Source: Saccharopolyspora spinosa NRRL 18395 (GTDB lineage Bacteria > Actinomycetota > Actinomycetes > Mycobacteriales > Pseudonocardiaceae). Taken from it: DNA of 64,000 bases. Each line of letters opens with the position of its first letter. The first letter of the stretch is position 1. The DNA is taken from the NCBI RefSeq assembly GCF_000194155.1, contig NZ_GL877878.1, positions 3,379,557 through 3,443,556 of the forward strand. Reading direction: 5' to 3'. Made by a program: the position numbers and the translations under genes. The notes under the pieces were generated by a model, which saw nothing but the letters and a program-made list of their open reading frames with translations, did no database searches and had not been told where the DNA came from. Positions 9,464-48,320 of the stretch are shown in pieces.

Positions 9464-10401
9464 CGATCTGCCCTCCTCCGCTTGACCCGCGGCCCGTCCG
9501 CCACCGCCGCGAAGATGTCGGTCAGCGCGCGGCGGTGGTCCTCCGGATCGCTGGACTGCTCGGTGATGATCACCTCGTCCGCGCCGGTCATCGCGCGCAG
9601 CCGGTGGATCGCGTCGGCGCACTGCTCGGCGCTGCCCACGCAGTTGATCCGGAGCCCGAACCGCAGGCTGTCCTCTTTGGCCCGCCGTGGATCGTCGTTG
9701 GCGACCACGCCGATCGCGACCGCGTTGCGGCCGGCCGGGAACGCCGCGCGGTAAGCGTCGAGGGTCCGCGTGCAGGCGTCCACGTCCGGGTTGAAGAACA
9801 GGGCGTGGCAGTAGTAGAAGCCGGCTCGTCCGGCCAGCGCCGCCGACCGCGTGCCCGAGCCGTGCATCCAGCGCTGGTACGGGGTCTCCAACGGGTCGAT
9901 CCACTCGCACCCGGAATCCAGCAACGAGATCACCGTGCCGATCGCCGCGTCGGTTCCCACGTCGTCCTTACGCAGGTGATCCAGGGCCTCGGCGCACGGA
10001 CCGATCACGTCGCCGCGGCCGAATCCGACGTCGAGCCGCTCGCCGCAGAAAAATCCGGCGGTCACCAGATCCTCGGCGGCCTGGTATGGGTCGCGCACGC
10101 GCACCAGGGTCACGGCGGTACCGATCCTGATCTGGCTGGTGTGGCTGCCGAGCACGGCCGCCAACTGGGCCGGATTGGTGCTCGGGGTGCCCAGCGCGTG
10201 ATGTTCGGGCAGCCAGAGCCGCCGGTATCCCAGCCGATCGGCCAGCAGCGCAGCGGCGAAGGCGGACTCGCGCTTCTCCCGGACCGTCTTGCCCTCGGCG
10301 AGGTCGAGGTACTCCAGCAGCCCCAGCGGTGGCCGGGGATCAGCGGTGGCGGCCGTGGTCGGCGCGCCGGATGCCGCGAGGTTCGCTACTCCGCTGCTCA
10401 T
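9460..10401 (-). CDS. LLM-class (F420/FMN) oxidoreductase of the lanthipeptide cluster
   Basis: A 313-residue luciferase-like TIM-barrel protein. Typical motifs are LGYRRLWLPEHHALG near the N terminus, IRIGTAVTLVRVRDPYQAAED, LDVGFGRG, a C-terminal CVGSAEQCADAIHRL, and VIITEQ. The start at 10401 follows a GGAGGG motif. It sits between lanA and lanB and its stop overlaps the lanB start. Family members in RiPP clusters include F420H2-dependent enzymes that reduce dehydroalanine/dehydrobutyrine to D-amino acids (the LxmJ/LanJC type) and monooxygenases. By position I infer a tailoring step on the dehydrated peptide. Which chemistry applies cannot be read from sequence. Confidence 0.85.
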   Translation of the reverse strand: MSSGVANLAASGAPTTAATADPRPPLGLLEYLDLAEGKTVREKRESAFAAALLADRLGYRRLWLPEHHALGTPSTNPAQLAAVLGSHTSQIRIGTAVTLVRVRDPYQAAEDLVTAGFFCGERLDVGFGRGDVIGPCAEALDHLRKDDVGTDAAIGTVISLLDSGCEWIDPLETPYQRWMHGSGTRSAALAGRAGFYYCHALFFNPDVDACTRTLDAYRAAFPAGRNAVAIGVVANDDPRRAKEDSLRFGLRINCVGSAEQCADAIHRLRAMTGADEVIITEQSSDPEDHRRALTDIFAAVADGPRVKRRRADR

Positions 10402-10542
10402 CACGCCCTCCGGGGACTGGGGAGGATGCGGCGACCGGGACGGCCGGCCGCCGCACTTCCTGCTACGACCGAGATGCCGCCGCTCCGACATCCTTTCCGG
10501 GGTGGACTGGCGCATCTCGGCACTGCCCTGAAGCCTGATTGC

Positions 10543-10713
10543 TCAGCAGGAGACGGTGTTCGCGCTGGGACACGGCGTGCCCCAGCAGGTCGTGCCCACG
10601 GTGATCGGGCCGGCCTGCACGTGAACGTTGTTGCCGAGATTGCCAGCGCCCGGCGCGGACAGGGTCTCCATGTCGATGTTGAGGTCGATTTCCTGAACGT
10701 TCTCGGAGAGCAT
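10543..10713 (-). CDS. lanA: class I lanthipeptide precursor peptide
   Basis: A 56-residue peptide with a perfect AGGAGG site (10721-10726) ahead of the ATG. The leader contains EIDLNIDMETL, which resembles the FxLD/FNLD-type recognition motif of class I leaders. The C-terminal part (from about residue 35) has Thr38, Thr41, Thr42, Thr46, Ser50, Thr53 and Ser55 and three Cys (43, 48, 56). That allows up to three (methyl)lanthionine rings with spare Ser/Thr that could stay dehydrated or be reduced. The cleavage site is not obvious; after Ala34 or Gly35 would leave a core of 21-22 residues. I do not recognise the core as a known lantibiotic. Confidence 0.9.
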   Translation of the reverse strand: MLSENVQEIDLNIDMETLSAPGAGNLGNNVHVQAGPITVGTTCWGTPCPSANTVSC

Positions 10714-11026
10714 GTTCGAACCTCCTCGGTTTTGGTGTTTCCGGGGAACCGGTTCGACTACCAGCCGGTTCGTTCTAAACGTTATCCCCGGGAAAGCGAA
10801 TCCCGCCTCGGCCGCGCGAACGATTTCCACCCGAACCGAAAGCCCAGTTCACGGCAGGGGATCTGCGCCTTCCTCCTCCCCGAGGACGAGGCCATCCGGA
10901 GACACTCAGGCGGTAGGTGAAGTTGGACTCGCGCCTGGACTCCGAGTTCCCCGGCAAGCTCTCTCGCGAATGCCTTGTCTCGATATGCCAACCCAATCCC
11001 GCCAGCTGGAGTCCAAGATGGACAGG
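10714..11026 (-). promoter_or_regulatory. lanA upstream region with direct repeats
   Basis: This 313-bp stretch between the kinase gene and lanA holds no gene. Two copies of CCGGTTCG (10749-10756 and 10765-10772, plus strand) are spaced 16 bp apart, about 1.5 helical turns, roughly 40-60 bp upstream of the lanA ATG. They are candidate binding sites for the NarL-type response regulator encoded just upstream. The sequence next to them (GTTATCCCCGGG, plus strand) is a local palindrome in part. No clear sigma-type hexamers were found. Confidence 0.4.
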
Positions 11027-15660: not shown

Positions 15661-15889
15661 AACAGGCTTGTTGGATACATCACCACGAATTGACTGGAAT
15701 TCAACCCAAAGCAGAGCTACCACCGAAATTAACCCACCGTCAACGATAGTTGAGAAATCAATATATTTTTTCCCTTTCTGTTCAAAGGATCTTTCCCGCA
15801 GGTGCAATGCCGTTGACGCGGCAACTCGCCGTCTCATAAGTTCACCCGGACAGTGGCCATTTCCCGGACAACCACAAGAGGATGGCTGA
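15661..15889 (+). promoter_or_regulatory. AT-rich leader before the aminohydroxybenzoate operon
   Basis: This 230-bp stretch is much richer in A/T than its surroundings (for example AATCAATATATTTTTTCCC near 15750) and precedes the first gene of the operon. It is the likely promoter region. No clear ribosome binding site other than an A/G-rich segment (AAGAGGATGGCTGA) is visible before the ATG at 15890, and I could not define hexamers or an operator. Confidence 0.35.
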
Positions 15890-16726
15890 ATGAAGCAACA
15901 CTTTCGCCATTTATCAACGGCGCGTCGTTTACGCCTCAATCGACTTTTTCGAAATAATCCACAAAGGACGTTGATCGTCCCGCTCGACCATCCACTCACC
16001 GATGGCCCCGGCGCGGGTCGCGGGGACAGCCTGAACAATCTCGTCGGCCAGCTCGCCACGAATGGCGCGGACGCCGTGGTCCTCCACAAAGGAAACGTGC
16101 GTTTCGTCGACCCGGCCTGGTTCAAGCAACTGTCTCTGATCGTGCACCTCAGCGCGAGCACCGTGCACGCGCCAGACCCGGACCACAAGGTGCTCGTCGG
16201 GACGGTCGAGGAGGCGCTGCGACTCGGCGCCGACTTGGTCAGCGTGCACGTGAACATCGGTTCCCGCGAGGAGGCGCGGCAGCTCGGGGATCTGGCGGCG
16301 GTGGCCGAATCCTGCGACCGCTGGAACGTTCCGCTGCTGGCGATGATGTACCCCCGCGGCCCGCGGATCACCGATCCGCGGAATCCCGAGACGGTCGTGC
16401 ACGCCGTGACGGTGGCAGCCGAGCTCGGAGCCGACATGGTGAAGACCTACTACGTCGGCTCGGACGATGCAATGGGCCGGATCACCTCCACGTCGCCGAT
16501 TCCGATCGTGGTGGCCGGCGGCCTGCGCACCGCAGACGAGAAAGACCTGCTGGAGCTCGTCGATGGGGCGATGCGGGGCGGCGCGGCAGGGCTGGCAATG
16601 GGCCGCAACATTTTCCAGGCTCCGCATCCCGGAAATCTCACCCGGAAGCTTGCGCAGCGGGTGCACGGCGACATCGTGCCGGCCGCTCCGACCGAGCTGA
16701 CCGCCGCCCAGCGGGATATGGCGTAA
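15890..16726 (+). CDS. 2-amino-3,7-dideoxy-D-threo-hept-6-ulosonate synthase (GriI-like)
   Basis: A 278-residue class I aldolase of the DhnA/FbaB type. Motifs are LIVPLDHPLTDGP, ADAVVLHKGNVRF, DLVSVHVNIGS, and the Schiff-base Lys185 in ADMVKTYYVG, then VVAGGLR and GGAAGLAMGRNIFQ. Homologues such as GriI condense aspartate-4-semialdehyde with a C3 phosphate (DHAP) as the first step of 3-amino-4-hydroxybenzoate synthesis; archaeal relatives serve the alternative shikimate route. The gene following it encodes the matching second enzyme, which makes the GriI-type assignment strong. Confidence 0.9.
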   Translation: MKQHFRHLSTARRLRLNRLFRNNPQRTLIVPLDHPLTDGPGAGRGDSLNNLVGQLATNGADAVVLHKGNVRFVDPAWFKQLSLIVHLSASTVHAPDPDHKVLVGTVEEALRLGADLVSVHVNIGSREEARQLGDLAAVAESCDRWNVPLLAMMYPRGPRITDPRNPETVVHAVTVAAELGADMVKTYYVGSDDAMGRITSTSPIPIVVAGGLRTADEKDLLELVDGAMRGGAAGLAMGRNIFQAPHPGNLTRKLAQRVHGDIVPAAPTELTAAQRDMA

Positions 16727-16791
16727 GCCGTTTCGAATTCTTCCGCCCGAGTCCTTTGACAATTCCCTGCACATCCGAGGATGCAAATTTC

Positions 16792-17892
16792 ATGAAGCTC
16801 ACCTGGGTCGACGTGCGTACCTGCCCGACCAAGTCCGCCGTTCTGGAAGAGGCGCTCCACATCAAGGTGGATGGAATCCTATCGGACTCCACCGCCGATT
16901 TCGACGGGTTGCCGCCGACGGTGCGGAAGATCCTGTTCCCGACCGGAACGAGCTTACCGGACGATTTCGGCCAGGCAGACGTGGTGATCGTCGTCCCCGA
17001 CGAGCACGGGCAACTCGACGAGCTCGCCGCGGCGCATCCCGAAATTGAGTTCGGGCAGTACGTCGAGATCACCGACGCCGCGACCCTGGACGAGGCGTGC
17101 CGGTCGGCACAGAGCAACAAGTGGAGCCTGCTGTACTTCCGCGATCCCACGAAGATTCCGCTGGAGATCGTGATCGCCGCCGCCGCGGGCTCGTCCGGGA
17201 AGCTGGTCACCATCGCCCAGGACGTGACCGAGGCTGAAATCATCTTCGGCGTGCTGGAGCATGGCTCGGACGGCGTCATGCTGGCGCCCGCGGCGGTGGG
17301 TGACACGACGGCGCTGAAGGCCGCAGCGGCGGACGGCAGTCCCGCGCTGGACCTCGTCGAGCTGACCGTCACGGCGACCGAGCACGTCGGCATGGGCGAG
17401 CGGGCCTGCGTCGACACCTGCACCTACTTCCGCAAGGACGAGGGCATCCTGGTCGGCTCGCACTCCAAGGGCATGATCCTGTGCGTCAGCGAGACCCATC
17501 CACTCCCCTACATGCCCACCCGGCCATTCCGGGTCAACGCTGGCGCCATCCACTCGTACACCCTCTCCGCCGAGGGCCGCACCCACTACCTGAGCGAGCT
17601 GAAGTCCGGCAGCAAGGTCATGGCGGTGGACACCTCGGGCCGGACCCGGATGGTCACCGTGGGCCGCGTCAAGATCGAGAGCCGCCCGCTGATCTCCGTG
17701 GACGCAGTGGCTCCGGACGGGCAGACGGTCAACCTAATCCTGCAGGACGACTGGCACGTGCGCGTGCTCGGCCCGGCGGGTGTGGTGCTCAACAGCACTG
17801 AACTCAAGCCGGGAGACACGGTTCTCGGCTACCTCCCCACGCAGGACCGGCACGTGGGCTACCCGATCAACGAGTTCTGCTTGGAAAAGTGA
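16792..17892 (+). CDS. 3-amino-4-hydroxybenzoate synthase (dehydroquinate synthase II family, GriH-like)
   Basis: A 366-residue member of the archaeal-type 3-dehydroquinate synthase II family. Characteristic segments are KLTWVDVRTCPTKSAV, DGVMLAPAAVGDTTAL, ERACVDTCTYFRKDEGILVG, SHSKGMILCVSETHPLPYMP, PFRVNAGAIHSYTL and YLSELKSGSKV. GriH of Streptomyces griseus uses the ADH synthase product to form 3,4-AHBA. It begins 65 bp after the preceding gene. Its TGA overlaps the GTG of the following hydroxylase gene, so the four genes form one operon. Confidence 0.92.
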   Translation: MKLTWVDVRTCPTKSAVLEEALHIKVDGILSDSTADFDGLPPTVRKILFPTGTSLPDDFGQADVVIVVPDEHGQLDELAAAHPEIEFGQYVEITDAATLDEACRSAQSNKWSLLYFRDPTKIPLEIVIAAAAGSSGKLVTIAQDVTEAEIIFGVLEHGSDGVMLAPAAVGDTTALKAAAADGSPALDLVELTVTATEHVGMGERACVDTCTYFRKDEGILVGSHSKGMILCVSETHPLPYMPTRPFRVNAGAIHSYTLSAEGRTHYLSELKSGSKVMAVDTSGRTRMVTVGRVKIESRPLISVDAVAPDGQTVNLILQDDWHVRVLGPAGVVLNSTELKPGDTVLGYLPTQDRHVGYPINEFCLEK

Positions 17893-19040
17893 CGATGAGC
17901 GACACGAGACCACTGGAGGTCGCGGTCGTGGGGGCGGGCATCACCGGGCTCGCCCTCGCGGCGGCTCTGCGGCGGGCGGGCATCGGCGTCGCAGTGTACG
18001 AGAAGGCGAACGCCTTCGGCGACATCGGCGCGGGCATCCAGCTCGCCCCGAACGCGGTGCGCCTGCTGCAGCGCCTCGGGCTGGCGGACGGCCGGGGCGG
18101 TGCGTTCGACCGCCATCGAGATGCGTGATGGGCGCACCGGTCAGGTGCGGGGCCGCATCCCGCTGGACGACTGCGAAAACCGGTACGGCGCGCCGTACTA
18201 CCTGCTCGCCCGCTTCGATCTGCACGCGCTGCTGGCGTCCCTGCTTCCCGACGGCGTGGTCGAGCTGGGCAAGGCCTGCGAGTCGGTGGCCGAGGACGAC
18301 GCGGCCGTGCGGTGCCGGTTCGCCGACGGCACGTCGGCGCCGACGTGCTGGTCGGCGCCGACGGCATCCGGTCTGCGGTGCGCCGGGCCAGGGTGGACGA
18401 CCAGCCCGTGTACTCGGGTTTCAGCGTCTACCGCGGCCTAGTCGACGCCAGCGGGTTGCCCGCCTCGTTCACCGAGCCCCGGTCGATCGTCTGGGCCGGG
18501 GAGGGCAGGCATTTCGTGTGCTACCCGGTGGCCGGCGGCAGACTGGTCAACTTCGTCGCGACCCTGTCGGCCGAGGAGTGGGGCGCGGAATCCTGGTCGG
18601 AGCCGGGAAAGGCCCAGGATGTGCTCGACGCCTTCGCCGACTGGGACAACGTGCATCCCCTGGTCGAGGCCGCGGAAACGGTGACCCGCTGGGGCCTGCA
18701 CGTCCGCGAGGACGGCCCGGCCTGGACCACCGCCCGGACGGCGCTGGCAGGCGATGCCGCGCACCCGATGCTGCCCTTCACTGCTCAGGGCGCGGGTCAG
18801 GGCATCGAAGACGCCGTTGCCCTGGCCGGTGCACTGGCACGCCACGGAGACGACGTCTCGGTGGCGTTGCGAACCTACGAGCAGGTGCGCCGCCCGCGGG
18901 CGACGAAGGTCCAACAGTTGTCCGGTGACATGGGGCGCAACCTCCACCGAGGTGCCTCCGAATCCCAGCAGCGTCCCGAAGCCCGGCCCGTCAGCGACAC
19001 CCTCGACTGGCTTTTCGACCACGACGCGGAAGCACTGTGA
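17889..19040 (+). CDS. FAD-dependent aromatic hydroxylase, frameshifted twice
   Basis: Class A flavin monooxygenase of the salicylate-hydroxylase type: N-terminal VAVVGAGITGLALAAALR, GDIGAGIQLAPNAVRLL, DVLVGADGIRSAVRRA, and C-terminal GDAAHPMLPFTAQGAGQGIED. The middle segment (about 18095-18335, STAIEMRDGRTGQ to RFADGTS) lies in a different frame. One extra base near 18090 (GGGG run) and one missing base near 18335 compensate each other, so full coding content is retained. By context it would hydroxylate 3,4-AHBA, as the PtmB3 enzyme does to give 3-amino-2,4-dihydroxybenzoate. The indels may be sequencing errors. Confidence 0.8.
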
Positions 19041-19930
19041 CGACTGCCGAGACGACCTCCGTACACAGAGGACACCACAATATGCTGCCAGCCCTTGCTG
19101 AGCACCACGTCGACGCCTACCTGGCGCGGATCGGCGCCGACCGCCCGGACAGCCCGGACCTAGAGACGCTACGGCACCTCCAGGAACGCCACGTGCTGTC
19201 GATCCCGTTCGAGACAATCGCGCTCTACACGGGGGAACCGGTGCCGCATACGCTCGATGCCGTGCAGAAGATCGTGGCACAGCAGCGGGGCGGGTGCTGC
19301 CTGGAACTCAACTCCGCGTTCGGCATGCTGTTGGGCACGTTCGGTTACCAGGTGGAGCTGCTGCACGGCCAGATCTACCGGAACTCGGTACTCGACAAGG
19401 GCATCGGCCACATGGCGCTGGGGGTCACAGTTCCGCTGTCCGGGCACGACCAGGTGTCCTGGCTCGTCGACGTCGGTCAGGGAAACAACAGCAGGCACCC
19501 GCTGCGGATCGACCTGCGCGAACCGCAACCCGATCCGCACGGCACCTACCTGCTGACTACCGCGCCCGAGGGCGACTTCGACGTGTCGTTGGATGGCATT
19601 TTGCTGTACCGGCTGGAAACCAGGGGCCGCGACGTGGAATACGGGAGCCGGTCCCTGTGGTGGTATCGCACGTCCCCGCGGTCGCCGTTCGCGGCAGCGC
19701 CGATTTCCATCGCACGCACCGAGCGGGGGAAGCGAACGCTGCGAGGGAAGGTGTTGATCGAGGATGACGACGGGCGGCGTACCCTGCGGCGGCTCGACAC
19801 CGACGAGGCATTGCTGAAGACATACCACGAGTACTTCGGAATCGAGCTGGATCGGGTGCCCTCCGCACAGGAACGGGTGTCCACCGCGATAGCCACCGAG
19901 AGAAATGCCGCGTCGGACAAGAAGCGGTGA
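19037..19930 (+). CDS. arylamine N-acetyltransferase homologue (possible amide synthase)
   Basis: A 297-residue NAT-family protein with the Cys-His-Asp triad: Cys88 in RGGCCLELNSAF, His in GIGHMALGV and Asp in WLVDVGQGN. The GTG start overlaps the hydroxylase TGA; ATG at 19082 is an alternative start after the poorly conserved first 15 residues. NAT homologues in secondary metabolism (RifF; PtmC in the platensimycin cluster) form amides between an aromatic amine and a larger acyl group. Position last in an operon that makes an aminohydroxybenzoate suggests it joins this amine to an acyl thioester, or simply detoxifies it by N-acetylation. Confidence 0.9.
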   Translation: MTTAETTSVHRGHHNMLPALAEHHVDAYLARIGADRPDSPDLETLRHLQERHVLSIPFETIALYTGEPVPHTLDAVQKIVAQQRGGCCLELNSAFGMLLGTFGYQVELLHGQIYRNSVLDKGIGHMALGVTVPLSGHDQVSWLVDVGQGNNSRHPLRIDLREPQPDPHGTYLLTTAPEGDFDVSLDGILLYRLETRGRDVEYGSRSLWWYRTSPRSPFAAAPISIARTERGKRTLRGKVLIEDDDGRRTLRRLDTDEALLKTYHEYFGIELDRVPSAQERVSTAIATERNAASDKKR

Positions 19931-20086: not shown

Positions 20087-21019
20087 TCAGTTCGCCCGGT
20101 GTCCGGCGGAGCCGGGCGCGGACAGGGCCGGGATGTCCGGGTGGTCGAGCAGCGTCTCGCCGACGGCGTCCACGGCCGCGCGCAGCGCTGCCTCCCGGCG
20201 CCGCACGATCGCGACGTTGCGGTGCACCGGCGTGCTGAGCTCGCGAGTGACAACCGGGATTCCGGGTGGGACGGCCAGCGCGGGAAGCATCGCCACCGAC
20301 CGGCCGGACTCGACGTGCTGGAGCAGCAGCAAGTAGTTGCTGAACCGGCAGGCCACCCGGGGTTCGAAGCCGGACTCGCGGCACAGCCGCTGGGTCAGCT
20401 CGGCCATGTACGAGCCCTGCCGGTCGCACGCCCAGGTCTCCTCCGCGCATGCGGCGAGGTCGACCACCCGGCGTCGCGCGAGCGGATGGTCCGGCGGCAG
20501 GACCAGCACCACCGGGTCGGTCCCCAGCGGGACGACTTCGAGGTCCCGGTCCCACGGGAACTTGACGTAGTCCGTGGTCGTGACGATCACGTCCACCTCG
20601 CCGGTGCGCAGCGCGGCCCCGCTCTCGTGCGGTTCGGACTCGATCAGCTCCACGTGCAGGTGCGGATGCGAGTCCGCCAGCCGGGCCGCCGCCGGTACGG
20701 CGAGCGTGTATATCGCGCTCTGGAACACCCCGAGCCGGACGGTGCCGATCGGCTCGTCGTTGAGCGCGCGCAGTTCGGCCTCCGCCTCGGCCATCTGGTC
20801 CAGGATCTCGCGGCCCCGGCGGGCGAGTGCCATCCCGGTACGGGTCAGCCGCACCCGACGCCCGTACCGCTCCAGGAGCCGGCTGCGAGTCTCGCTCTCG
20901 AGCACCGCGAGCTGTTGGGACACCGTTGATGGGCTCAGATGCAGCGTCTCGGCCACAGCGCGGACGGTGCCGAGGTTGTCGAGCAGGCCGAGCAGGCGCA
21001 GGCGCCACGGATTCAGCAT
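20087..21019 (-). CDS. LysR-family regulator divergent from dgdA
   Basis: About 310 residues, with an N-terminal HTH (TVRAVAETLHLSPSTVSQQL, LESETRSRLLERYGRRVRL) and a LysR effector domain (IGTVRLGVFQSAIYTLAV, GEVDVIVTTTDY). The start chosen gives MLNPWRLRLLGLL, usual for this subgroup; an ATG at 21040 is the alternative. It is transcribed away from the aminotransferase gene 84 bp away, as DgdR is from dgdA in Burkholderia, so regulation of that gene is likely. No operator was defined in the short shared promoter region. Confidence 0.88.
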   Translation of the reverse strand: MLNPWRLRLLGLLDNLGTVRAVAETLHLSPSTVSQQLAVLESETRSRLLERYGRRVRLTRTGMALARRGREILDQMAEAEAELRALNDEPIGTVRLGVFQSAIYTLAVPAAARLADSHPHLHVELIESEPHESGAALRTGEVDVIVTTTDYVKFPWDRDLEVVPLGTDPVVLVLPPDHPLARRRVVDLAACAEETWACDRQGSYMAELTQRLCRESGFEPRVACRFSNYLLLLQHVESGRSVAMLPALAVPPGIPVVTRELSTPVHRNVAIVRRREAALRAAVDAVGETLLDHPDIPALSAPGSAGHRAN

Positions 21020-21066
21020 GCCAACATTGTGCGGCTCCATCGAACAGTTTCGTCGAAATCGCGTGA

Positions 21067-22395
<1,329 letters not shown>

Positions 22396-30040: not shown

Positions 30041-30511
30041 CGGCGGATGGTCGATCGCGCCGCTGTCCTGGGGTGGCTCGTTCATTCATCGCTGCTGATC
30101 AAACGGTCCCAGCTCCAGAGGCGGGTCTGCGACATACCTGGGTCATCGTGTCGCCGCTGCGCAACACCGCTCCCGGCAAACCGACACACCTCCAGCCCCA
30201 GGGCGCGTGAAAGGTTGACCTGTCCGGTTTAGGTAGTTTCCCTCAGATCAACCTTGCACACGCCCTGCGTCCAGACCCTTGCCGACGGCCGCCCCGGTAG
30301 ACCACGGCCATCAATCCGGAACCCAGTCCTCAGCACGGATGCCAGCTTCGATGGTGCACGCGAGTCCGCGACCCGTCCATCACCGCGCTTCTGTCAAGGT
30401 GCTAATGCATATTAGTCCTGCAGGACAAAATTCGACCAGGGGCTTGATCCACGGGGATACGCCGTTCAGTCTCGGTGTCTGATCCGCGTTCTCGACGAGG
30501 AGGCTACTGCA
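30041..30511. other. gene-free stretch between GntR and the hydrolase pair
   Basis: Apart from the 69-bp inverted-repeat element at 30199-30267 I see no gene, RNA or clear promoter here. Composition drops locally in GC near 30400-30430 (CTAATGCATATTAGTCCTG, itself with a short TAATGCATATTA palindrome), which may mark the promoter for the downstream pair. Confidence 0.4.
30199..30267. repeat. 69-bp inverted-repeat element (deletion derivative of the 44945 element)
   Basis: Its ends form imperfect inverted repeats (left CAGGGCGCGTGAAAGGTTGA, right ending GCACACGCCCTG). Read as reverse complement, the first 28 bp equal 44945-44972 exactly and the remaining 41 bp equal 45458-45498 with three mismatches. 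It is therefore the 554-bp element with 485 bp removed, inserted in the opposite orientation. It carries no coding sequence. Confidence 0.88.
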
Positions 30512-31530: not shown

Positions 31531-33444
31531 CTATTCGACCCACTTCACCGACATCGCCAGCGGACAGCGCGCCACCCGCGTGGTCGGTGGTCTGGTTCCC
31601 TTGCCGACACGCAGGACCGCCAGCACGGCGTTGTCGCCGGAGGTGTCTCCCGTCGAGGGAGTCCCGAGTCCGCCGAATTCTCCCAGCAATGGTTGAGCCG
31701 CGTATCCCTGCTCAACCAGGGACAGCCACAGTCGCATCAACGTCTCGCCCGCGCTGATGCGGTCAGCTACGGTCCGACGAGGGCCACGCAGCACGAGTGC
31801 CGCGCCGCAATTGCGCAGCTGCCGGGCACGCCCGTGCTCGACGGCACGTGCCAGTACGTGACGTTTGGCCGCGTCCGGTATCGCAGATCCCGCCAGAGCC
31901 GACGCAAGACGTCCGGCGACACCGGAGATGCCGAGCAGGTCGTGAGGCGTGCCGAACCAACTGCGGCCGGACTCGGTAGCGGCCCGCTTGCGCACCCACG
32001 CCCACATTTCGTCCTCGTTGCCGATCAATGTGGACCTATCGTGTTCGGTCCGGCCGAGGAGCCTGCTTCGAGCTTGCGAGCCCCTCATCGTCTCCAGGTT
32101 GACATTTCGGTCGGTACACAGTTTTTCGAGCTGCTTCAGGGTCGTGCAGTCGATCGGGGTGGACAGCATGTCGCCTCGGTGCGTCGAACGTGCCCCCAGA
32201 ACACCCTGGCGGGTCAGGAAGTCGTCACGCAGGCGATCGAGGCGGAATCGGCCTGCGGACCAGTTCTGGTCCGTGAGCGCACCCTCGTGCGCCTCCCATT
32301 CGCCGTGCGCGAGGTACGAAAGAGCCCCCAGCGCGCATCCGAGGTCCTCGGCCCAGCCCAGCTCGTCCGGATGCGCTGTCGGCCAGCGTTGCCCGTTGAG
32401 TGCGAGTTGGACAGTGTGGTCGTCGACGATTTCGAAGCGCCACGGCTGGGAGTTGTACGTGGAAGGCGCGAGTCGGGCGCCGTTGAGCACGCCGGTGAGT
32501 TCCGGGGGCAGTTCGCGCTCCCGTTGCACGCTCCGCACGGGCCGAGAACCGCCTTTCTTCGTCACTTGGTGAATGGTCCACAGAGTCCGGGCGAGTTCCA
32601 GCGGCATACGCGCCCGGTGTGCTAACGCAGCGGTTCTCGGCATGGCCGCAGCATGGAAGTCCACCGTCACGACGGGTTTCACCCGTCGGTTCATCAGCAA
32701 GTTGAGCACAACCCTGCTGCCGAGCGCGCCGAGACCCATCACGCAGTAGGAAATCTGCGGCCAGGTACCGCCGTTGGCCAGCCGGTCGGACATGACGGGG
32801 AGGTAGTCGCTGGGGAAGTGCGTCCTGCCGAACCAGCGCACGGACTCCCACAGACGGTTGTCCCGGTGCGCTTCCGCGGTCGCCTTCCCGTGGAACGGCA
32901 GCGGGTTGCGGCGGTAGTCGAAGACGAACACGGCCGGTTTTCCGCCCCAGTCGACTCCGGCGACGACGGGAATGCCGCGTCGGGCGGCGCGTTCGTGCAG
33001 CTGGTACTTGACCCACGCGGACATCGCGGGATCGATCGCGTCGAAGGCGACGTGCGCGCCGTCGAGCGCCTCGTCGAGGTTTTCGAGGGTGAGACCGTCC
33101 GGGTAGGTGCGCACCTCGGCGGTGGGACTGATCGCGACTACCCGGCGGGCGAGCACCTCGGGTTTCGGCTGGCCGACATCAGCGACCACGCACGCCTGCC
33201 GGTTGAGATTCGACACGTCGAAGCTGTCCGGGTCGGCGAGCCGGAAACGGGTGACGCCCATTCGCGCCAGCGGTTCGACCACGGCACCACCCACGCTGCC
33301 GCAGCCGGCCACCAGCACGGCCGCGGACCGGAGTACCGCTTGTTCACGCTCGGTGAGAATGTCCAGGTTGCGACTCACGGCCTCCGCACCGAAACTCGCC
33401 GTCCCCGCCGAGAGCGGATCAGGACCTCGGAAATCCGAATGCAC
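31531..33444 (-). CDS. ThiF/E1-like adenylyltransferase fused to a nitroreductase-like domain (Rv1355c/MoeY type)
   Basis: A 637-residue two-domain protein. Residues about 15-290 are a ThiF/MoeB/HesA fold: VLVAGCGSVGGAVVEPLARM, LADPDSFDVSNLNRQ, FDAIDPAMSAWVKYQLHE and VAGVDWGGKP. Residues about 310-630 resemble nitroreductase-type flavoproteins (NGARLAPSTYNSQPWRFEI, GISGVAGRLASAL, AGETLMRLWLSLVEQGYAAQPL). The same fusion is known as MoeY/Rv1355c in Mycobacterium, whose true function is unclear. The catalytic Cys of classical E1 enzymes is not evident. It is the last gene of the minus-strand operon and suggests carboxylate activation followed by a redox step. Confidence 0.82.
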   Translation of the reverse strand: MHSDFRGPDPLSAGTASFGAEAVSRNLDILTEREQAVLRSAAVLVAGCGSVGGAVVEPLARMGVTRFRLADPDSFDVSNLNRQACVVADVGQPKPEVLARRVVAISPTAEVRTYPDGLTLENLDEALDGAHVAFDAIDPAMSAWVKYQLHERAARRGIPVVAGVDWGGKPAVFVFDYRRNPLPFHGKATAEAHRDNRLWESVRWFGRTHFPSDYLPVMSDRLANGGTWPQISYCVMGLGALGSRVVLNLLMNRRVKPVVTVDFHAAAMPRTAALAHRARMPLELARTLWTIHQVTKKGGSRPVRSVQRERELPPELTGVLNGARLAPSTYNSQPWRFEIVDDHTVQLALNGQRWPTAHPDELGWAEDLGCALGALSYLAHGEWEAHEGALTDQNWSAGRFRLDRLRDDFLTRQGVLGARSTHRGDMLSTPIDCTTLKQLEKLCTDRNVNLETMRGSQARSRLLGRTEHDRSTLIGNEDEMWAWVRKRAATESGRSWFGTPHDLLGISGVAGRLASALAGSAIPDAAKRHVLARAVEHGRARQLRNCGAALVLRGPRRTVADRISAGETLMRLWLSLVEQGYAAQPLLGEFGGLGTPSTGDTSGDNAVLAVLRVGKGTRPPTTRVARCPLAMSVKWVE

Positions 33445-33545
33445 GATTTTTCTCCAGCGGTCACCGGAAGTTGACCTTCCGAATTTTCGCCGTGTCGAGT
33501 TTTCTTCGCCGGCGAGTAGGAAGCTGCCCGTCCAGGGGCCTCGTC

Positions 33546-34811
33546 CTACGAGGCCACCCGCTCGTCGAGCAGCCGGACAATCTTGCCGCTGCGGGGGTTC
33601 ACCTTGATCATGTCTGCCGGTACGAACTCGACCAACAGCGGGTTGATCAGGCCGGCGCGCACGTGTTCGCCGAACATCGGGCGCAACTCGTCAAACCGCG
33701 CGGATATCGCTTCGGCAAGCGGCTGCGGATCGTTGATCTGCCCACCGATCCGCAGCACGAGTTCGTCCTTGGAGTCCCGTCGACGTTGCACCGCCTGGAA
33801 TCCCGCGATGGGCTGGTCGCCGGCCAGTTCCTCGATCACCAAACGCAGGTCCTCCAGGTAGACGGTGACCGGACCGACCCTGGCTCCATCGTCGGCACGG
33901 CCCAGCAGGCGGAACCGGCGATCGTCGTAGTCGATCCACGCGGCGCGGTCACCGACCGGATACCGGATGAGGGGCATCAGCCGCCGGACGAGGTCCGTGG
34001 CCAGCAGCCTGCCGGGGCGACCTGGTTCCCTGATCGGATCGCCGGTTTCGTCGTCGACGATCTCCATCAGTTTTTGGAGCCGGTGGACGCGATGCACGCG
34101 AGCGTCCGGCTCGTCCTGGACGGGCGCGGCCAGCACACCGGCATCCACCGACGCGTACCCCAGCGAGCGGACAACGGCGTTGGGGAACGCGTCGGCGATC
34201 AGTCTGCGCTGATCGTCGTAGAACGCCTCCCCACCGAAGAGGAAGAGGTGGACCGCGGGTGCCGAGTCACCTCGCGCGGTCAGCCGCGACGCGACCTGGC
34301 TGGCCGTGGTGGGCGTCGCCAGCAGCACGGTCGCTTCCTGCTCGATGATCAGGTCCGCCATGACCTCGGGCGACGGGCTTCCCGCGATCGGCAGGTGCAC
34401 AACGGGGACGCACGTCTCCTGCAGGCACAGGACGTTGAACAGGAAACTCGCGTACAACTCCCCGGCGTAGAAGAGGTTGGCAACCCGGTCGCCGGTCCGC
34501 AGTCCTGCCGCCGCGTACCCGTCTCCCTGCAGCCTGGCCATGTCGTGCAGTTCCGCCCTGGTGTACACGGTCAGTTTGGGGCTGTTGACGGTCCCACCGG
34601 TTTTGAACACGACACCGTCGTCGTGGCGAGCCGTCAGCACCCGGTTGTCCTTCACCGTATTCGCTTTCCAGAAGCTGGCGTGGTCGATGATCGGCAAGTC
34701 CTCCGCCCGGATCGGCCCGTCGGTGGCAACACCGGCGTAGAGGGCCCGATAGTAGGGAGAATTGCGGCGGGCGAAGTCGACCAGTTCGGTGAGATCCGGT
34801 TCCAGCATCAT
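33546..34811 (-). CDS. CapK/phenylacetate-CoA-ligase-like adenylating enzyme
   Basis: A 421-residue AMP-forming enzyme of the PaaK/CapK group: NSPYYRALYAGV, VVFKTGGTVNSPKLTVYTRA (P-loop-like), LFLFGGEAFYDDQRRLI, RSLGYASVDAGVLAAP, LLATDLVRRLMPLIRYPVGD and a C-terminal MIKVNPRSGKIVRLLDE. The first motif is shorter in Ser/Thr/Gly than in true ligases but intact. Homologues load aromatic or branched acids onto CoA or carrier proteins. No carrier-protein gene is visible in the operon, so a CoA ester or a free adenylate handed to another enzyme is possible. It starts 28 bp after the KAS III-type gene. Confidence 0.8.
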   Translation of the reverse strand: MMLEPDLTELVDFARRNSPYYRALYAGVATDGPIRAEDLPIIDHASFWKANTVKDNRVLTARHDDGVVFKTGGTVNSPKLTVYTRAELHDMARLQGDGYAAAGLRTGDRVANLFYAGELYASFLFNVLCLQETCVPVVHLPIAGSPSPEVMADLIIEQEATVLLATPTTASQVASRLTARGDSAPAVHLFLFGGEAFYDDQRRLIADAFPNAVVRSLGYASVDAGVLAAPVQDEPDARVHRVHRLQKLMEIVDDETGDPIREPGRPGRLLATDLVRRLMPLIRYPVGDRAAWIDYDDRRFRLLGRADDGARVGPVTVYLEDLRLVIEELAGDQPIAGFQAVQRRRDSKDELVLRIGGQINDPQPLAEAISARFDELRPMFGEHVRAGLINPLLVEFVPADMIKVNPRSGKIVRLLDERVAS

Positions 34812-34839
34812 GTGTCCCTTTCGTCGGTGAAGACGCCCG

Positions 34840-35814
34840 TCATCCCGTGATCTCCAGGAGCGCGCAGATGAACCGGAAGCCGACACCGATCCCGATCACG
34901 AGGACGGTGTCCGACGGCTCGATGGACTCTTCCCGGAGGAAGTGGTCCAGGCCGAGTAGCTGGTCGCACGGGCCGACATGGCCGAGTGTCCGGTGCAGCG
35001 GCCAGCTGGTCCGGTCGCTGGGTATGCCCAGGGGCTCGAGGAGGAGAACGTTCAGCTGCGCCAACCCCAATCCGGTGACCGCGAACCGGGAAACCTTGTC
35101 GAGCGACACGCCGGCTTCCTGGAGGACCTGCTCGACCGCGGTGCGGGCGGCTGTCTGGAGGGTGCCGAGGTGGGGCATGACGCCGACCGTCTCCGCCGGT
35201 GTCATCATGCGGCTTCCGTCCTCCGCGGGGATGGTGGGTGTGGCCAGGCCTTCGAGTTCGGGCGCCGCAGTGCAGGAGGTGGCGACCAGCCGGGCCCGCC
35301 CGGCTCCCCGGCTCAGCACGGCGGCAGCGGCGCCATCGGACAGGAAGTGCCCCAACCCGGGCAGCCACCTCGGCCAGCGCGGCGCGACGAACCGGCCCGC
35401 CGCCGTAACCAGCGCGGACGTGGCGGAGGGATCAGCGGCTAGGTGCGAGGCGGCCAGCACGAGTCCCGCAGCACCACCGCAGCTGCCCGCGCCCGCCTCG
35501 ACCGCGAGCGCCCGGGAGGCACCCACAACCCGCTGTACGTAACAGGCGGGAGCGTAGTGCTCCTGGTCATCGAAGACGGCGTGGATCACCGTGGCGATGT
35601 CGGCGCCCTCGTGCCCGGAGCGGCGGAGGGCGTCGGTCGCCGCACTTGCGGCCATCTCCGCGGCGGTGAACCCGTCCGAGGCGGTAAAGGACTCGAAGTC
35701 GGACATCTCGAACGCTTGGCGTTCGATCGTGCCGTCACCAACGAGGTCGATAGCGCTGGCGCGGGGCGGCAGGTACCGGCCAGTGCCGCTGACGAACAAG
35801 TCGTTCCAGAGCAT
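34840..35814 (-). CDS. ketoacyl-ACP synthase III family protein (acyltransferase-like)
   Basis: A 324-residue thiolase-fold protein: DGFTAAEMAASAATDALR, the probable nucleophile Cys in AGAGSCGGAAGLVLA, GHFLSDGAAAAVLSRGAG and VLVIGIGVGFRFICALLEI. The usual HQAN segment is replaced by TGLGLAQLN, and the GNTSAAS-type motif by LGHVGPCDQLLGL with His and Asp. This is the pattern of KAS III-like proteins (ChlB3/CerJ type) that transfer acyl groups rather than condense them. It is probably the acyl-transfer or C-C bond-forming step of the operon product. Confidence 0.85.
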   Translation of the reverse strand: MLWNDLFVSGTGRYLPPRASAIDLVGDGTIERQAFEMSDFESFTASDGFTAAEMAASAATDALRRSGHEGADIATVIHAVFDDQEHYAPACYVQRVVGASRALAVEAGAGSCGGAAGLVLAASHLAADPSATSALVTAAGRFVAPRWPRWLPGLGHFLSDGAAAAVLSRGAGRARLVATSCTAAPELEGLATPTIPAEDGSRMMTPAETVGVMPHLGTLQTAARTAVEQVLQEAGVSLDKVSRFAVTGLGLAQLNVLLLEPLGIPSDRTSWPLHRTLGHVGPCDQLLGLDHFLREESIEPSDTVLVIGIGVGFRFICALLEITG

Positions 35815-35817
35815 GGT

Positions 35818-36143
35818 GTCCTTCTTCCGGTGCGGATGTCGGGTGGCGGTCGTTCACAGCGGTCAGGGTGCGGGTCGGCCGGATCACCTCGGTCCGCCGC
35901 CAGCGGCACGACACCGATGCCGAGTGGCTGGACGTGGTGAGTGCGGGCGTCGTCGGCCCACAGCCAGTCCTCCGCGAGGACGCGGATCTCGCCGTCGCCC
36001 TTGGTGACCGCGACGTCTGGGCTTCGGCCGCGACCGATGCGGTCGTCGCATCGGCGGCACGGCGATCGGCTCCGGCGGGGTGTGGGCGGGTGCCGACGCT
36101 AGAAGCTGGACCATCGGACGCACGGCGACGGCTTTCGCGGCCA
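35818..36143 (-). other. gap with a possible broken small gene
   Basis: Between the SnoaL-like and KAS III-type genes lie 326 bp. An ATG at 36147 overlaps the preceding stop (ATGA) and opens a frame that starts sensibly (AVAVRPMVQLLASAPAH) but turns Arg-rich. Another frame then reads well from about 36020 (VAVTKGDGEIRVLAEDW, LWADDARTHHVQPLGIGVV). One or two indels would give a small protein of about 90-100 residues. I do not recognise it. Confidence 0.3.
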
Positions 36144-36641
36144 TCACACGCTCCGGAACGGTACGGGTCGAGAAGGGATCAGTGCCTGGTCGCTGATCCA
36201 GGCGGTGGTCAACTCACGGGTGTGGAAGAACCACTTATCCGCGACCCGCAGGTAAGTGTCCGTGTAGCGGACGCAGCGCACGGACATCCTGCCCGCTCCG
36301 TCGTGGTCGTAGAGTTCGTGTGCGAGGCAGTAGGTCTCCCCGGTCGCGTCGTCGCCACTGATCGACACCAGGTGGTTGCCGACGAAGTGGACGGTGGCGG
36401 TGAAGGGCGCCAGGAGCGCGAACGCCCTCGCCCAGCCGTCGCCGCCGTCGAACACGAGCTTGGGACGATCGCCACCGGCCGGGTGCGGCACCACGAGTCG
36501 GCCTTCCGCGCAGAACAAGGTTCCGAACTGCTTCTGGAGCCGGTTGTCCAGAACATGCGCGTAGCTGTCGACGAGTTCGCGCAGGGCGATCCGATCAGAG
36601 ACTTCGCTCGCGCTGGGGCGCTCCCTGGTCGGGTCAACCAT
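36144..36641 (-). CDS. SnoaL-like/NTF2-fold protein
   Basis: 165 residues with the cone-shaped NTF2/SnoaL_4 pattern: DRIALRELVDSYAHVLDNR at the N terminus, LFCAEGRLVVPHP, FTATVHFVGNHLVSISGD, CLAHELYDHD, RCVRYTDTYLRVADKWFFHT and RELTTAW. Such proteins act as cyclases, hydratases or dehydratases in small-molecule pathways. It has a GAAGGAG site ahead of its ATG and overlaps the upstream SCO6745-like gene by 8 bp. Candidate catalytic residues are the Asp of the N-terminal helix and the central His, but no specific reaction can be assigned. Confidence 0.82.
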   Translation of the reverse strand: MVDPTRERPSASEVSDRIALRELVDSYAHVLDNRLQKQFGTLFCAEGRLVVPHPAGGDRPKLVFDGGDGWARAFALLAPFTATVHFVGNHLVSISGDDATGETYCLAHELYDHDGAGRMSVRCVRYTDTYLRVADKWFFHTRELTTAWISDQALIPSRPVPFRSV

Positions 36642-37500
36642 TTCTGCCAGCTCTCCTTCTGGCCGAGCGCAGCCCGGACACCACCTGGGCCGTGAGCGGG
36701 CGCATCAGTTCCAGCAACCGGTTGGTCGCCGTGACGCCGAGCGCTCGCCACGGAACCTCCGCGAGTTGGTCCGTGCGTTGCTCCACCGCCTGTCTGGTCT
36801 CGCTACCCCGTTCCGTCAGCGACCCGTCGGCGGCGAGAAGCCCCCGTTGGGTCAGCCGGTGCTCGCCGGCAGCCCATTCCGTGTCGGTCCATCCCCGGCG
36901 CGCCTGGATGCTGGCACGTCGTTCGATCCCCGAGGCCGTCGCGGTGATCAGCGCCTCGACACCACCGAGCCTGGCTTCGGCCAGCGCGACCACATGACCG
37001 TCGCCGCGAAACTCGCGAAGCGTCGTCACCGCCTGCCACAGCGCCAGGTGCGGCTCGTCGGGCAGGTCCAGTGCCTGGTTCGCGGCGCAGAGCGGGCGCG
37101 CTGGCACGGAGCACGCCGTTGCTCCCGCCACCGCCAGTGCTGCCGCCTCCGCCACCCACCGTTGCGCCAGCACACCGTCCAGCAGCGCGCGGAGAGCGGC
37201 GTCCACACCGGTCAGACGTGCGTGGAGGGCCTGCGTGGGGGTTGCCTTCTCCCACAAGCCGGTCATCTCGGCTACCACCATCGATGGCTTGAAGTGGTAG
37301 AAGACGGCGCTCACCACCGCCGGTCCGACCGGGCCCAGCGGTGCTGCCCGGCCACCGAAGTAGCCGTCCCAGGGGCCCGTCAGACCGATCGCGTGGAACG
37401 CCTGCACGGACTGGGTGGCCAGGTAGGTCACGCCGTGGAACGGATCGAGCACCTGGTGCGCTTCGCGGGTCAGGCGCAGATCCACCAATGTGGCGTTCAT
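36634..37500 (-). CDS. SCO6745/SalK-like protein
   Basis: 288 residues matching the SCO6745 family of actinomycetes: DPFHGVTYLATQSVQAFHAIGL, DGYFGGRAAPLGPVGPAVVSAVFYHFKP, LARLTGVDAALR, HLALWQAVTTLREFRGDGHV, RRGWTDTEWAAGEHRL and LTERGSETRQAVEQRTD. The last half is winged-helix-like. Members occur beside secondary-metabolite genes (SalK in salinosporamide), and their function is unproven. The ATG overlaps the acyl-CoA dehydrogenase stop (ATGA). Confidence 0.8.
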   Translation of the reverse strand: MNATLVDLRLTREAHQVLDPFHGVTYLATQSVQAFHAIGLTGPWDGYFGGRAAPLGPVGPAVVSAVFYHFKPSMVVAEMTGLWEKATPTQALHARLTGVDAALRALLDGVLAQRWVAEAAALAVAGATACSVPARPLCAANQALDLPDEPHLALWQAVTTLREFRGDGHVVALAEARLGGVEALITATASGIERRASIQARRGWTDTEWAAGEHRLTQRGLLAADGSLTERGSETRQAVEQRTDQLAEVPWRALGVTATNRLLELMRPLTAQVVSGLRSARRRAGRNG

Positions 37501-38678
37501 GAGCGGTCCGCCCCGGAGAAGTGCACGAGCGTGGAGATGCCGCGCTTGTCGATCTCGTTGGCGACGACCAGTCGCTGCACCTCGGACGTGCCCATCCAGA
37601 TCCGGTCCAGCCGCACATCGCGGTAAATGCGCTCCACCGGGTTCGCCCTCAGGTAGCCACGCCCTCCGAAGATCTGGACCGCTCGGTCGGCGACCCGGCC
37701 CGCCGCCTCGGTTGCGGCGATCTTCGCCATCGCGACCTTGGCGTTGAGGGTCTTCAGGTCGCTCTGGCGGTCGACCTCCCACGCCACGCGGTGGACGAAG
37801 GTGCGGTTGACAGCGACGTCGATGGCGGAGTCGGCCAGCATGCCCTGGATGAGCTGGTGCCGAATGATCCGGTCGCCACCCTGAACGCGCTCACGGGCCC
37901 AATCCGAGGCGAGAGCCAGTGCCCGTTCAGCGGCGCCCATCGCGTGGGCCGCAAGGACGATGCGCTCTTCGGAGAACGTGGCCTGGGTGAGCCTGAGGCC
38001 CTCGCCAACGGCTCCGAGTACCGCGTCCTCACCGACTTCCACGTCGGTGAACCTGAAGTGCGGGTGCGCAAACGCGAACTGGTGCGTGTAGCGGGGCACC
38101 TCGATGCACTCCACACCAGGAAGGTCCTTGTCCACCAGGAACATGGTTGGTGCGTTGTCCGGCTGGGTTACGGCGAGCAGCACGAAGTAGTCGGCGACGT
38201 CTCCGAGTGTGACGAACCACTTCTCACCATTGATCCGGTAACCCTTGGTGGTGCGGACAGCGGTGGTCGCGATCCCGCGCAGATCAGAGCCGGCCGCAGG
38301 CTCGGTGATGGCGCGACCGCCGAACCTGAGCCCGCGGACTTCTGGAATCAGGTATTGCTCGCGCTGGGCCGCCGTACATGCGAGCAGCTCCGCCGCCGTG
38401 GGACGCCAGACTGCCGCCCATAGCCCGTTGGTCAGCTGGCCCAGCTCCTCTTCCACCACGACCTGCTCCAGCCAGGACAGGCCAGCACCACCTGAGTCGA
38501 CCGGGGCGTTCATCGCCGCGAGACCGCTGTCCAGCGCGAGAGCCTTGACGTGGTGCCGACTCTCTTCCGAGAGACTGCCGTTCCGCTCGCACTCGTCCTC
38601 GTAGGACATTAATTGCTTCGTCAACTCCCCGGCGCGCCGCTTGAGTTCCGCAAGACGTGCCGAATATGCGAATTCCAT
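37497..38678 (-). CDS. acyl-CoA dehydrogenase family protein
   Basis: A 393-residue FAD enzyme, apparently the first gene of the minus-strand operon. Motifs are GGAGLSWLEQVVVEEELGQ, ITEPAAGSDLRGIATTA, YRINGEKWFVTLGDVADYF, EERIVLAAHAMGAAERALALA and RAVQIFGGRGYLRANPVERIYRDVRLDRIWMGTSEVQRLVVANEI (discontinuous in function, continuous in sequence). The usual catalytic Glu region near the C terminus reads RDVRLDRIWMGT, as in isovaleryl/2-methyl-branched dehydrogenases without the late Glu. It likely introduces a double bond into an acyl precursor. Confidence 0.88.
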   Translation of the reverse strand: MEFAYSARLAELKRRAGELTKQLMSYEDECERNGSLSEESRHHVKALALDSGLAAMNAPVDSGGAGLSWLEQVVVEEELGQLTNGLWAAVWRPTAAELLACTAAQREQYLIPEVRGLRFGGRAITEPAAGSDLRGIATTAVRTTKGYRINGEKWFVTLGDVADYFVLLAVTQPDNAPTMFLVDKDLPGVECIEVPRYTHQFAFAHPHFRFTDVEVGEDAVLGAVGEGLRLTQATFSEERIVLAAHAMGAAERALALASDWARERVQGGDRIIRHQLIQGMLADSAIDVAVNRTFVHRVAWEVDRQSDLKTLNAKVAMAKIAATEAAGRVADRAVQIFGGRGYLRANPVERIYRDVRLDRIWMGTSEVQRLVVANEIDKRGISTLVHFSGADRS

Positions 38679-47757: not shown

Positions 47758-48320
47758 CCCCCGAAATCATCGTCGGCACTGCGGTGGGGCGTCTTCTGCT
47801 CCGTCAACCAGGTCGCGAGCTGGGTCCGGGAGTTGCACCCGAGCTCGAAGAAGACGTGTTCCACGGGGGCCTCGACGGTCGATTTCGCGATGAACAGATT
47901 GGAAGCGATTTCCGTGTTCGACAATCCCTTGGTGACCAGCGCGGCGACCTCATGCTCGCGCCTCGTCAGCGGTGAGCTCAACAACGGAGCGGCCGCCTCA
48001 GCCTTGGCGCCCTCGGACAGCGCGTAGGCAATGGCCGCATCAAGCGACATGCCGCGCCCCACCTCGTAGGCGTCGTCGAATGCCTCATCGCCAAGGGCAT
48101 CGCGCGGTCGGGCCTCGGCCCCATCGTGCCAATTGAGGTAGTAGCCGAACCCGGACAAGAAGTCGCTGATCGGTTCGAAGGGCTTGCCGCTGACCCCGAA
48201 GAGCTTGGCGGCCCGCGCCATCAACACAGACCTGACCTGAGCGTTCTTCTGCCGACGCCCGACGAAACTCACGACATCCGCCGGAAGGCCACACGGCGTT
48301 CCGGGCGACGACTTGCCCAC
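47754..48320 (-). CDS. LuxR-HTH protein, internally deleted STAND regulator
   Basis: 188 residues with the two ends of a LuxR/STAND regulator. The N-terminal VVSFVGRRQKNAQVRS is the normal start just before the P-loop. The sequence then jumps to the very C-terminal linker (DAYEVGRGMSLDAAIAYAL) and a complete LuxR HTH (LTRREHEVAALVTKGLSNTE, SNLFIAKSTVEAPVEHVFFE). ATPase and TPR parts are missing in between. It is translationally coupled to the HTH-less STAND gene downstream. It could be a functional DNA-binding partner or an intermediate of gene decay. GTG start at 48320. Confidence 0.82.
   Translation of the reverse strand: MGKSSPGTPCGLPADVVSFVGRRQKNAQVRSVLMARAAKLFGVSGKPFEPISDFLSGFGYYLNWHDGAEARPRDALGDEAFDDAYEVGRGMSLDAAIAYALSEGAKAEAAAPLLSSPLTRREHEVAALVTKGLSNTEIASNLFIAKSTVEAPVEHVFFELGCNSRTQLATWLTEQKTPHRSADDDFGG

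Follow-up and report, generated by a model that had tools for sequence, protein, structure and literature searches.

A Saccharopolyspora spinosa gene cassette for the predicted synthesis and N-acylation of 3-amino-4-hydroxybenzoate, with a broken hydroxylase gene

Introduction

GriI and then GriH convert aspartate semialdehyde and dihydroxyacetone phosphate to 3-amino-4-hydroxybenzoic acid (3,4-AHBA). In platensimycin and platencin biosynthesis, the genes for 3-amino-2,4-dihydroxybenzoate (ADHBA) and its amide, ptmB1, ptmB2, ptmB3, and ptmC, represent the same four activities as a compact gene cassette of Saccharopolyspora spinosa NRRL 18395 that is the subject of this study. The cassette lies in a stretch of 64,000 nucleotides (G000:C1:3379557-3443556, on contig NZ_GL877878.1; hereafter the window) of a genome of 8.58 Mb in 22 contigs, and comprises genes for a GriI-type aldolase, a GriH-type synthase, a flavin adenine dinucleotide (FAD) enzyme resembling salicylate hydroxylase, and a protein of the arylamine N-acyltransferase (NAT) family. 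Expression of ptmB1, ptmB2, and ptmB3 along with ptmA3 and ptmU4 led to ADHBA in S. avermitilis and to none in three other hosts, S. albus, S. lividans, and S. coelicolor (PMC6006322).

Two further kinds of 3,4-AHBA pathway are close to the cassette. AsuC2 and ColC2 of asukamycin and colabomycin are NAT-family proteins proposed to join a polyketide chain to 3,4-AHBA (PMC11213898); unlike the NAT of the window, they come from type II polyketide clusters. Two clusters larger than the cassette of the window, those of ahbamycin (ahb) and crexazone (crx), lead through 3,4-AHBA to 3-acetamido-4-hydroxybenzoic acid, and ahb also to the N-propionyl analogue (PMC11429834, PMC10179220). The acetamido compound is recorded as crexazone 1, as AHB119, and as a shunt product of grixazone and cremeomycin (PMC11429834), a mass and UV assignment of N-acetyl-3,4-AHBA is found in PMC10777205, and the N-propionyl analogue has likewise been published (PMC10179220).

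We tentatively propose, with a probability of roughly 0.47, that the cassette is a stand-alone module which makes 3,4-AHBA and acylates its amino group through a dedicated NAT with a small acyl-CoA, an additional hydroxylation step having been kept in a sister genome and lost in the strain of the window. The parts are known; their stand-alone arrangement was not met in the literature searched, which left most subscription papers outside. Within that same scope, a search for AHBA together with meroterpenoids found nothing, and a search combining arylamine N-acetyltransferase, 3-amino-4-hydroxybenzo, and gene cluster found only PMC11213898.

Organization of the cassette and the broken hydroxylase gene

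A sequence-only reading of the window had described four linked genes at 15890-19930; they lie on one strand in the order aldolase, synthase, FAD enzyme, and NAT, and the family matches agree with these names (Table 1). The best models for the first two are those of the bagremycin and ferroverdin enzymes, BagB/FevI and BagC/FevH, and both scores fall below the strict exception cut-offs of these models (379.7 bits against 500 for the aldolase, 632.6 against 750 for the synthase). A DhnA-type aldolase gene adjoins a DHQS-II-type synthase gene, as in the GriI/GriH, BagB/BagC, and FevI/FevH pairs. Overlaps of 4 bases link the GriH gene to the FAD gene (17889-17892) and the FAD gene to the NAT gene (19037-19040), which suggests coupled translation of the three. 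A scan for promoters and terminators gave no signal exceeding that of shuffled sequences.

Table 1. Coordinates in the window of the cassette genes and of the two genes next to them
Feature	Position	Strand	Basis
GriI-type (DhnA/DeoC-family) aldolase, first step to 3,4-AHBA	15890..16726	+	NCBIfam BagB/FevI 5.4e-114; Pfam DeoC 4.4e-51
GriH-type (3-dehydroquinate synthase II family) 3,4-AHBA synthase, ATG at 16792	16792..17892	+	NCBIfam BagC/FevH 1.7e-190; Pfam DHQS 1.7e-109
Salicylate-hydroxylase-like FAD monooxygenase gene, broken (two deletions, early stop)	17889..19040	+	Reading frames, alignment to the sister genome G386, family matches of the pieces
Arylamine N-acyltransferase (NAT family)	19037..19930	+	Acetyltransf_2 PF00797 2.7e-42 (145.6 bits, cut-off 22.8)
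LysR-type regulator	20087..21130	-	Pfam LysR_substrate 1.4e-43; 95% in L064
Class III pyridoxal phosphate (PLP) aminotransferase	21103..22395	+	Pfam Aminotran_3 4.4e-75; 94% in L064

The FAD enzyme gene is not intact, contrary to its first description. Its frame is open to 18125, where a TGA stands; beyond this point the coding sequence shifts to a second frame before returning to the original one. Of its pieces, the outer two match models of 3-hydroxybenzoate and salicylate hydroxylases, and the middle piece matches weakly (HpxO, 2e-05). A sister genome of the same genus (G386) carries the complete cassette at locus L064, with the hydroxylase in a single frame on the minus strand (L064:8659-9822), and in the alignment 8 bases near 18089 and another 4 near 18332 are missing from the gene of the window. 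A whole-genome search independently shows one TGA within the gene. Identities between the two genomes are 97% for GriI, 99% for GriH, 95-97% for the hydroxylase pieces, and 87% for the NAT.

When 22 gene spans of the window were set against G386, two failed to align, and the match of a third (47754-48320) was limited to 44 bases. Besides the hydroxylase, the 19 spans with an alignment amount to 19,989 aligned bases, in which the frame is broken at one further place, by a 1-base gap at 47757 where two AfsR-like pieces meet; the three remaining gaps are multiples of 3, and GriI, GriH, and the NAT have no gaps at all. A sequencing error is thought unlikely because the two hydroxylase gaps, of 8 and 4 bases, are separated by about 240 bases and have a single frame-breaking counterpart in all those aligned bases. 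From the assembled sequences compared, a real and recent pseudogene is therefore the likelier explanation. No second hydroxylase of the cassette's family was found in the genome at E 1e-65 (4 of 61 candidates scored). An intact hydroxylase of PtmB3 type is thus lacking in the assembly of the window and present in the G386 lineage, and since the gene is broken, ADHBA is not to be expected from this operon.

The ratios of nonsynonymous to synonymous substitution (dN/dS) between the window and G386 are indicative of purifying selection on GriI (0.17), GriH (0.12), and the hydroxylase (0.20), which fits a pathway retained until recently. Selection appears weaker on the NAT (0.47, against 0.08-0.39 in the nine other genes measured), 38 of whose 297 residues are not shared with the G386 ortholog. 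From these observations it could also be argued that the operon is a decaying remnant without a product in this strain and that its NAT serves general arylamine detoxification. The broken hydroxylase would agree with this, as would a NAT that has the highest dN/dS of the four genes and is the only NAT match in the whole genome. We consider it unlikely all the same, given that GriI, GriH, and the NAT are free of gaps against G386, that the NAT retains its catalytic residues, and that 23 of the 27 NATs without linkage to GriH group away from it in the tree described below.

The Cys-His-Asp triad of the NAT family, as given in PMC11213898, is present in the NAT of the window as Cys88, His125, and Asp145, in columns invariant in 4 sequences, so that the protein has both the PF00797 domain and the triad. 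Its structure model is middling (predicted local distance difference test score, pLDDT, 69.6), and a fold search with the model returned the NAT fold with poor superposition (root-mean-square deviation 12.7-16.1 A, 40 matches under E 0.001), which is uninformative on the acyl donor. In sequence, the S. aureus NAT structure 8k51, which is probably ColC2, matches the NAT of the window more weakly (1.2e-12) than ordinary NATs do (4.2e-21).

Distribution of the cassette among relatives

Within the family, 88 of 390 genomes had a GriH match at E 1e-40, the genome of the window counted; in the Streptomyces group (the genus of the Streptomyces carrying locus L003), 82 of 392 genomes had one at E 1e-60. 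A total of 101 GriH loci were mapped, namely 100 chosen hit places, mostly stronger ones, and L002 of Nonomuraea typhae; the best few candidates of each genome were scored, and the genes of the relatives' loci were in part scanned with Pfam and otherwise judged by eye. The cassette of the window stands outside these 101 loci, and the second GriH locus of its genome is among them. A scan of genome contigs gave two loci, L002 and L003.

A hydroxylase of the cassette's family was present at 37 of the 101 loci and a NAT at 17, and the contiguous order GriI-GriH-hydroxylase-NAT at operon spacing occurred at five (L064, L091, L104, L123, and L141). L100 has the same four genes with an aspartate kinase between them and an interval of about 1 kb ahead of the NAT. 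The LysR and class III aminotransferase genes that follow the cassette of the window were matched among the 101 loci at L064 of G386 only (E 1e-15); as they were seen with the cassette in that genome alone, they are at most possible core parts of it.

The relatives differ in their surroundings. L104 (genome G616 of the Streptomyces group, L104:7149-16373) has the order and spacing of the window, with identities of 71% for GriI, 78% for GriH, and 56% for the NAT, and its hydroxylase, 63% identical to that of G386, reads through, unlike that of the window. Also unlike the window, the L104 cassette adjoins genes for UbiA, a polyprenyl synthase, a cyclase like squalene-hopene cyclase (SHC), and a squalene-epoxidase-like protein, which together make a candidate AHBA meroterpenoid pathway. 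L105 (genome G459, likewise of the Streptomyces group) consists of GriI-GriH-NAT (73, 77, and 53% identical to the window), which is what the operon of the window now amounts to; no hydroxylase of the cassette's family was found at L105 or within 20 kb on either side (60 kb examined). About 5 kb upstream of it, on the other strand, is the gene of an 817-residue protein with a carrier domain and hexapeptide-transferase repeats, with TauD and PLP-enzyme genes beyond. The L091 cassette is flanked by genes for a 3-ketoacyl-acyl carrier protein synthase III (KAS III), an adenosine monophosphate (AMP) ligase, and a zinc dehydrogenase. L123 together with L164 has DXS, polyprenyl synthase, TauD, thiolase, ChsH2-like, terpene synthase, SHC-type cyclase, and acyl-CoA dehydrogenase genes, a content from which we take it to be of platensimycin type.

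In addition, at two loci, L127 (13059-13355 and neighboring genes) and L139, the AHBA genes and a hydroxylase adjoin genes for enzymes like those of thiopeptides and lanthipeptides, as judged from reading frames only; L127 encodes a short peptide with a Ser/Cys-rich terminal run.

Phylogeny of the cassette enzymes

In the hydroxylase tree (64 rows), 41 rows form a clade (96/94), of which 40 are GriH-linked and the other is L183, on whose contig stretch the GriH search gave no match; a test forcing the 40 linked hydroxylases onto one side was not rejected (p 0.115). The clade includes both G386 and L123, the former paired with L104 (100/100) and the latter grouped elsewhere with L107 and L161. 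The solved references, tropone 2-monooxygenase, NicC, vanillate 1-hydroxylase, and salicylate hydroxylase, fall outside it. By count, 16 of the 17 top family matches beyond G386 and the window have a GriH match within about 15 kb.

The NATs of the window, G386 (L064), L104, and L105 form a clade (100/99) in a tree of 50 rows. This clade is nested in a 15-row set (96/83) with L123, other AHBA-linked NATs, a pair from L003 lying beside KAS III-like genes, and four unlinked NATs; NATs were labelled unlinked by comparing the hit places of NAT and GriH. In the tree of GriI and GriH together (100 rows, quick method), the window, G386, L104, L066, and L105 are united (99), L066 being a locus with a distant NAT and no hydroxylase of the cassette's family. 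Taken together, the three trees indicate that the cassette of the window is a lineage of its own. The phylogenies proposed with the sequence-only reading thus place the NAT of the window away from NATs lying apart from GriH, and the G386 hydroxylase away from the degradative reference enzymes. A general-purpose NAT is disfavoured by this tree position and by the linkage to GriH, even though the genome has no other NAT.

The same reading had called the cassette platensimycin-type, which holds for the gene set (ptmB1-B2-B3 plus ptmC) and for the gene order, which L123 shares, and is looser than stated as to ancestry, since the trees place the genes with L104, L105, or both rather than with L123. 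The G386 hydroxylase shares a clade with that of L123 without being its sister; the NAT of the window is 37% identical to the L123 NAT, belongs to another clade, and meets it only in the wider 15-row set; and, in contrast to the platensimycin type, the hydroxylase of the window is broken. A Pfam scan of 38 window genes showed no linked genes for a terpenoid acyl-CoA. All three trees reject a straight platensimycin orthologue. The related statement that no terpenoid or polyketide genes accompany the cassette stands for these 38 genes, none of which belongs to a terpenoid, polyketide synthase, or carrier-protein family, with the reservation that one KAS III C-terminal domain lies at 34843-35814.

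Predicted product and alternatives

From their families, GriI and GriH would make 3,4-AHBA. In the intact cassettes of G386 and L104 the FAD hydroxylase would introduce a further hydroxyl, with position 2 as the most likely site, yielding ADHBA, and the dedicated NAT would then acylate the amino group, most likely with a small acyl-CoA such as acetyl-CoA. In the strain of the window, with its hydroxylase broken, the expected product would be N-acyl-3,4-AHBA. A small donor is favoured because the cassette of the window has no adjoining acyl-making genes and because the terpenoid genes of L104 include their own UbiA prenyltransferase, by virtue of which the L104 NAT need not carry a terpenoid. 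As the N-acetyl and N-propionyl compounds have been published, the simplest products are not new, and the suggestion of a simple N-acyl aminohydroxybenzoate not yet described does not apply to them.

Several observations weigh against this proposal. The L105 cassette is not free of biosynthetic neighbors, and the carrier-protein gene near it lowers our confidence in a small donor and calls for caution. The 18 rows of GriH-linked NATs are not monophyletic (4 changes), as L066 and another eight that form their own group (91/75) stand apart, so linkage alone does not fix the acyl donor. The NAT is the fastest-evolving of the four genes, which could reflect decay or a shift in its substrate. Decarboxylating enzymes are among the nearest solved hydroxylases, and another pair of AHBA genes elsewhere in the genome (C1:86532) blurs what the operon of the cassette alone supplies. 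Finally, the NAT homologues AsuC2 and PtmC of other AHBA clusters take large acyl groups (PMC11213898).

The last point bears on a platensimycin-like use, in which other genes would make a larger acyl-CoA for the NAT to join to the aromatic amine. One source could be a group at 31.5-38.7 kb that contains the KAS III domain with a weak AMP ligase and an acyl-CoA dehydrogenase. This group is on the same side of the cassette in G386, at a distance of about 8.5 kb as compared with 11.6 kb in the window, and the genes flanking L091 and the carrier-protein gene about 5 kb from L105 point in the same direction, as does the manner in which PtmC and AsuC2 are described to work (PMC11213898). The neighborhood common to G386, however, extends through other genes to at least 56.8 kb, so position by itself says little, and carrier-protein and terpenoid families are missing from the 38 scanned genes; we regard a larger acyl-CoA as doubtful.

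The FAD enzyme of the intact cassettes might also hydroxylate with removal of the carboxyl, giving 2-aminohydroquinone and, after acylation by the NAT, acetamidohydroquinone. Its closest solved relatives include 6-hydroxynicotinate 3-monooxygenase, the decarboxylative vanillate 1-hydroxylase, salicylate hydroxylase, and a 4-hydroxybenzoate decarboxylase. Yet the four solved references of the tree lie outside the AHBA-linked clade, and the clade includes the platensimycin-type enzyme, whose pathway retains the carboxyl, which makes decarboxylation quite improbable.

Least probable of all, in our estimation, is that the cassette supplies an aromatic unit in trans to a meroterpenoid cluster of the same genome at C2, about 2.21 Mb, where genes for a polyprenyl synthase, UbiA, and an SHC-like protein stand in a row. 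The cyclase encoded there shares 39% identity with that next to the L104 cassette, and such a cyclase is also present in G386; nonetheless, the UbiA of L104 does not retrieve the UbiA of the C2 cluster at E 1e-10, and nearby ketosynthase (KS) and KAS III genes could make an aromatic unit of the cluster's own.

A broader interpretation, which we hold to be rather unlikely, is that GriI-GriH-(hydroxylase)-NAT constitutes a portable module for an N-acyl aminohydroxybenzoate and travels as a whole between unrelated settings: by itself in the window, G386, and perhaps L105, in the company of diterpenoid genes in the platensimycin type, and next to UbiA/cyclase genes in L104. Where it stands alone, the module would either release the acylated acid in its bare form or feed a distant terpenoid cluster to give an AHBA meroterpenoid. 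If this were true, the hydroxylated bare acid would be a fragment like the FabF/FabH-binding end of platensimycin. If instead our preferred interpretation of a stand-alone 3,4-AHBA module with a small acyl donor is right, the four genes would be a complete, expressible unit for an N-acylated aminohydroxybenzoate and would show what a dedicated AHBA NAT does without a large acyl partner. The setting of L104 points to a possible class of AHBA-derived terpenoids. The value of the window itself is modest, as one enzyme is broken and the simplest products are already known.

Surroundings of the cassette and other loci of the genome

The alignment to G386 starts at 15663 and spans the cassette, the LysR gene, and the class III aminotransferase gene to 22376. 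There, the window has about 8 kb where G386 has about 2.4 kb; the alignment resumes at 30276 and runs, interrupted by gaps, up to the limit of the G386 stretch at 56860. In the resumed part, on the minus strand at 31531-38678, genes for a ThiF/nitroreductase-like fusion, a weak AMP ligase, a KAS III-like protein, a SnoaL-like protein, and an acyl-CoA dehydrogenase stand in a row that is also present in G386 and possibly forms a small pathway.

Two other loci of the genome are related to the genes discussed here. L065:589-10635 (G000:C1 near 86.5 kb) has a second GriI-GriH pair with genes for an aspartate kinase, a lyase, a FAD/NAD-binding protein, and an O-methyltransferase; the lyase and the FAD/NAD-binding protein resemble the nitrous-acid enzymes CreD and CreE. 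The GriI-GriH-kinase trio of this locus is also found in G386 (L078). At L199:5403-17843 (G000:C2 near 2.21 Mb), genes for an aminotransferase, a polyprenyl synthase, UbiA, and an SHC-like cyclase follow one another, and KS and KAS III genes lie close by; this likely meroterpenoid cluster is in part also present in G386 (L200).

The first 15.6 kb of the window have no match in three G386 stretches (60 kb). They include class I lanthipeptide genes on the minus strand at 5311-10830, encoding a LanC-like protein, a LanB with both domains, and a luciferase-like monooxygenase, with a candidate precursor peptide, picked by eye, at 10543-10830, and an ATP-binding cassette (ABC) transporter at 1648-3699.

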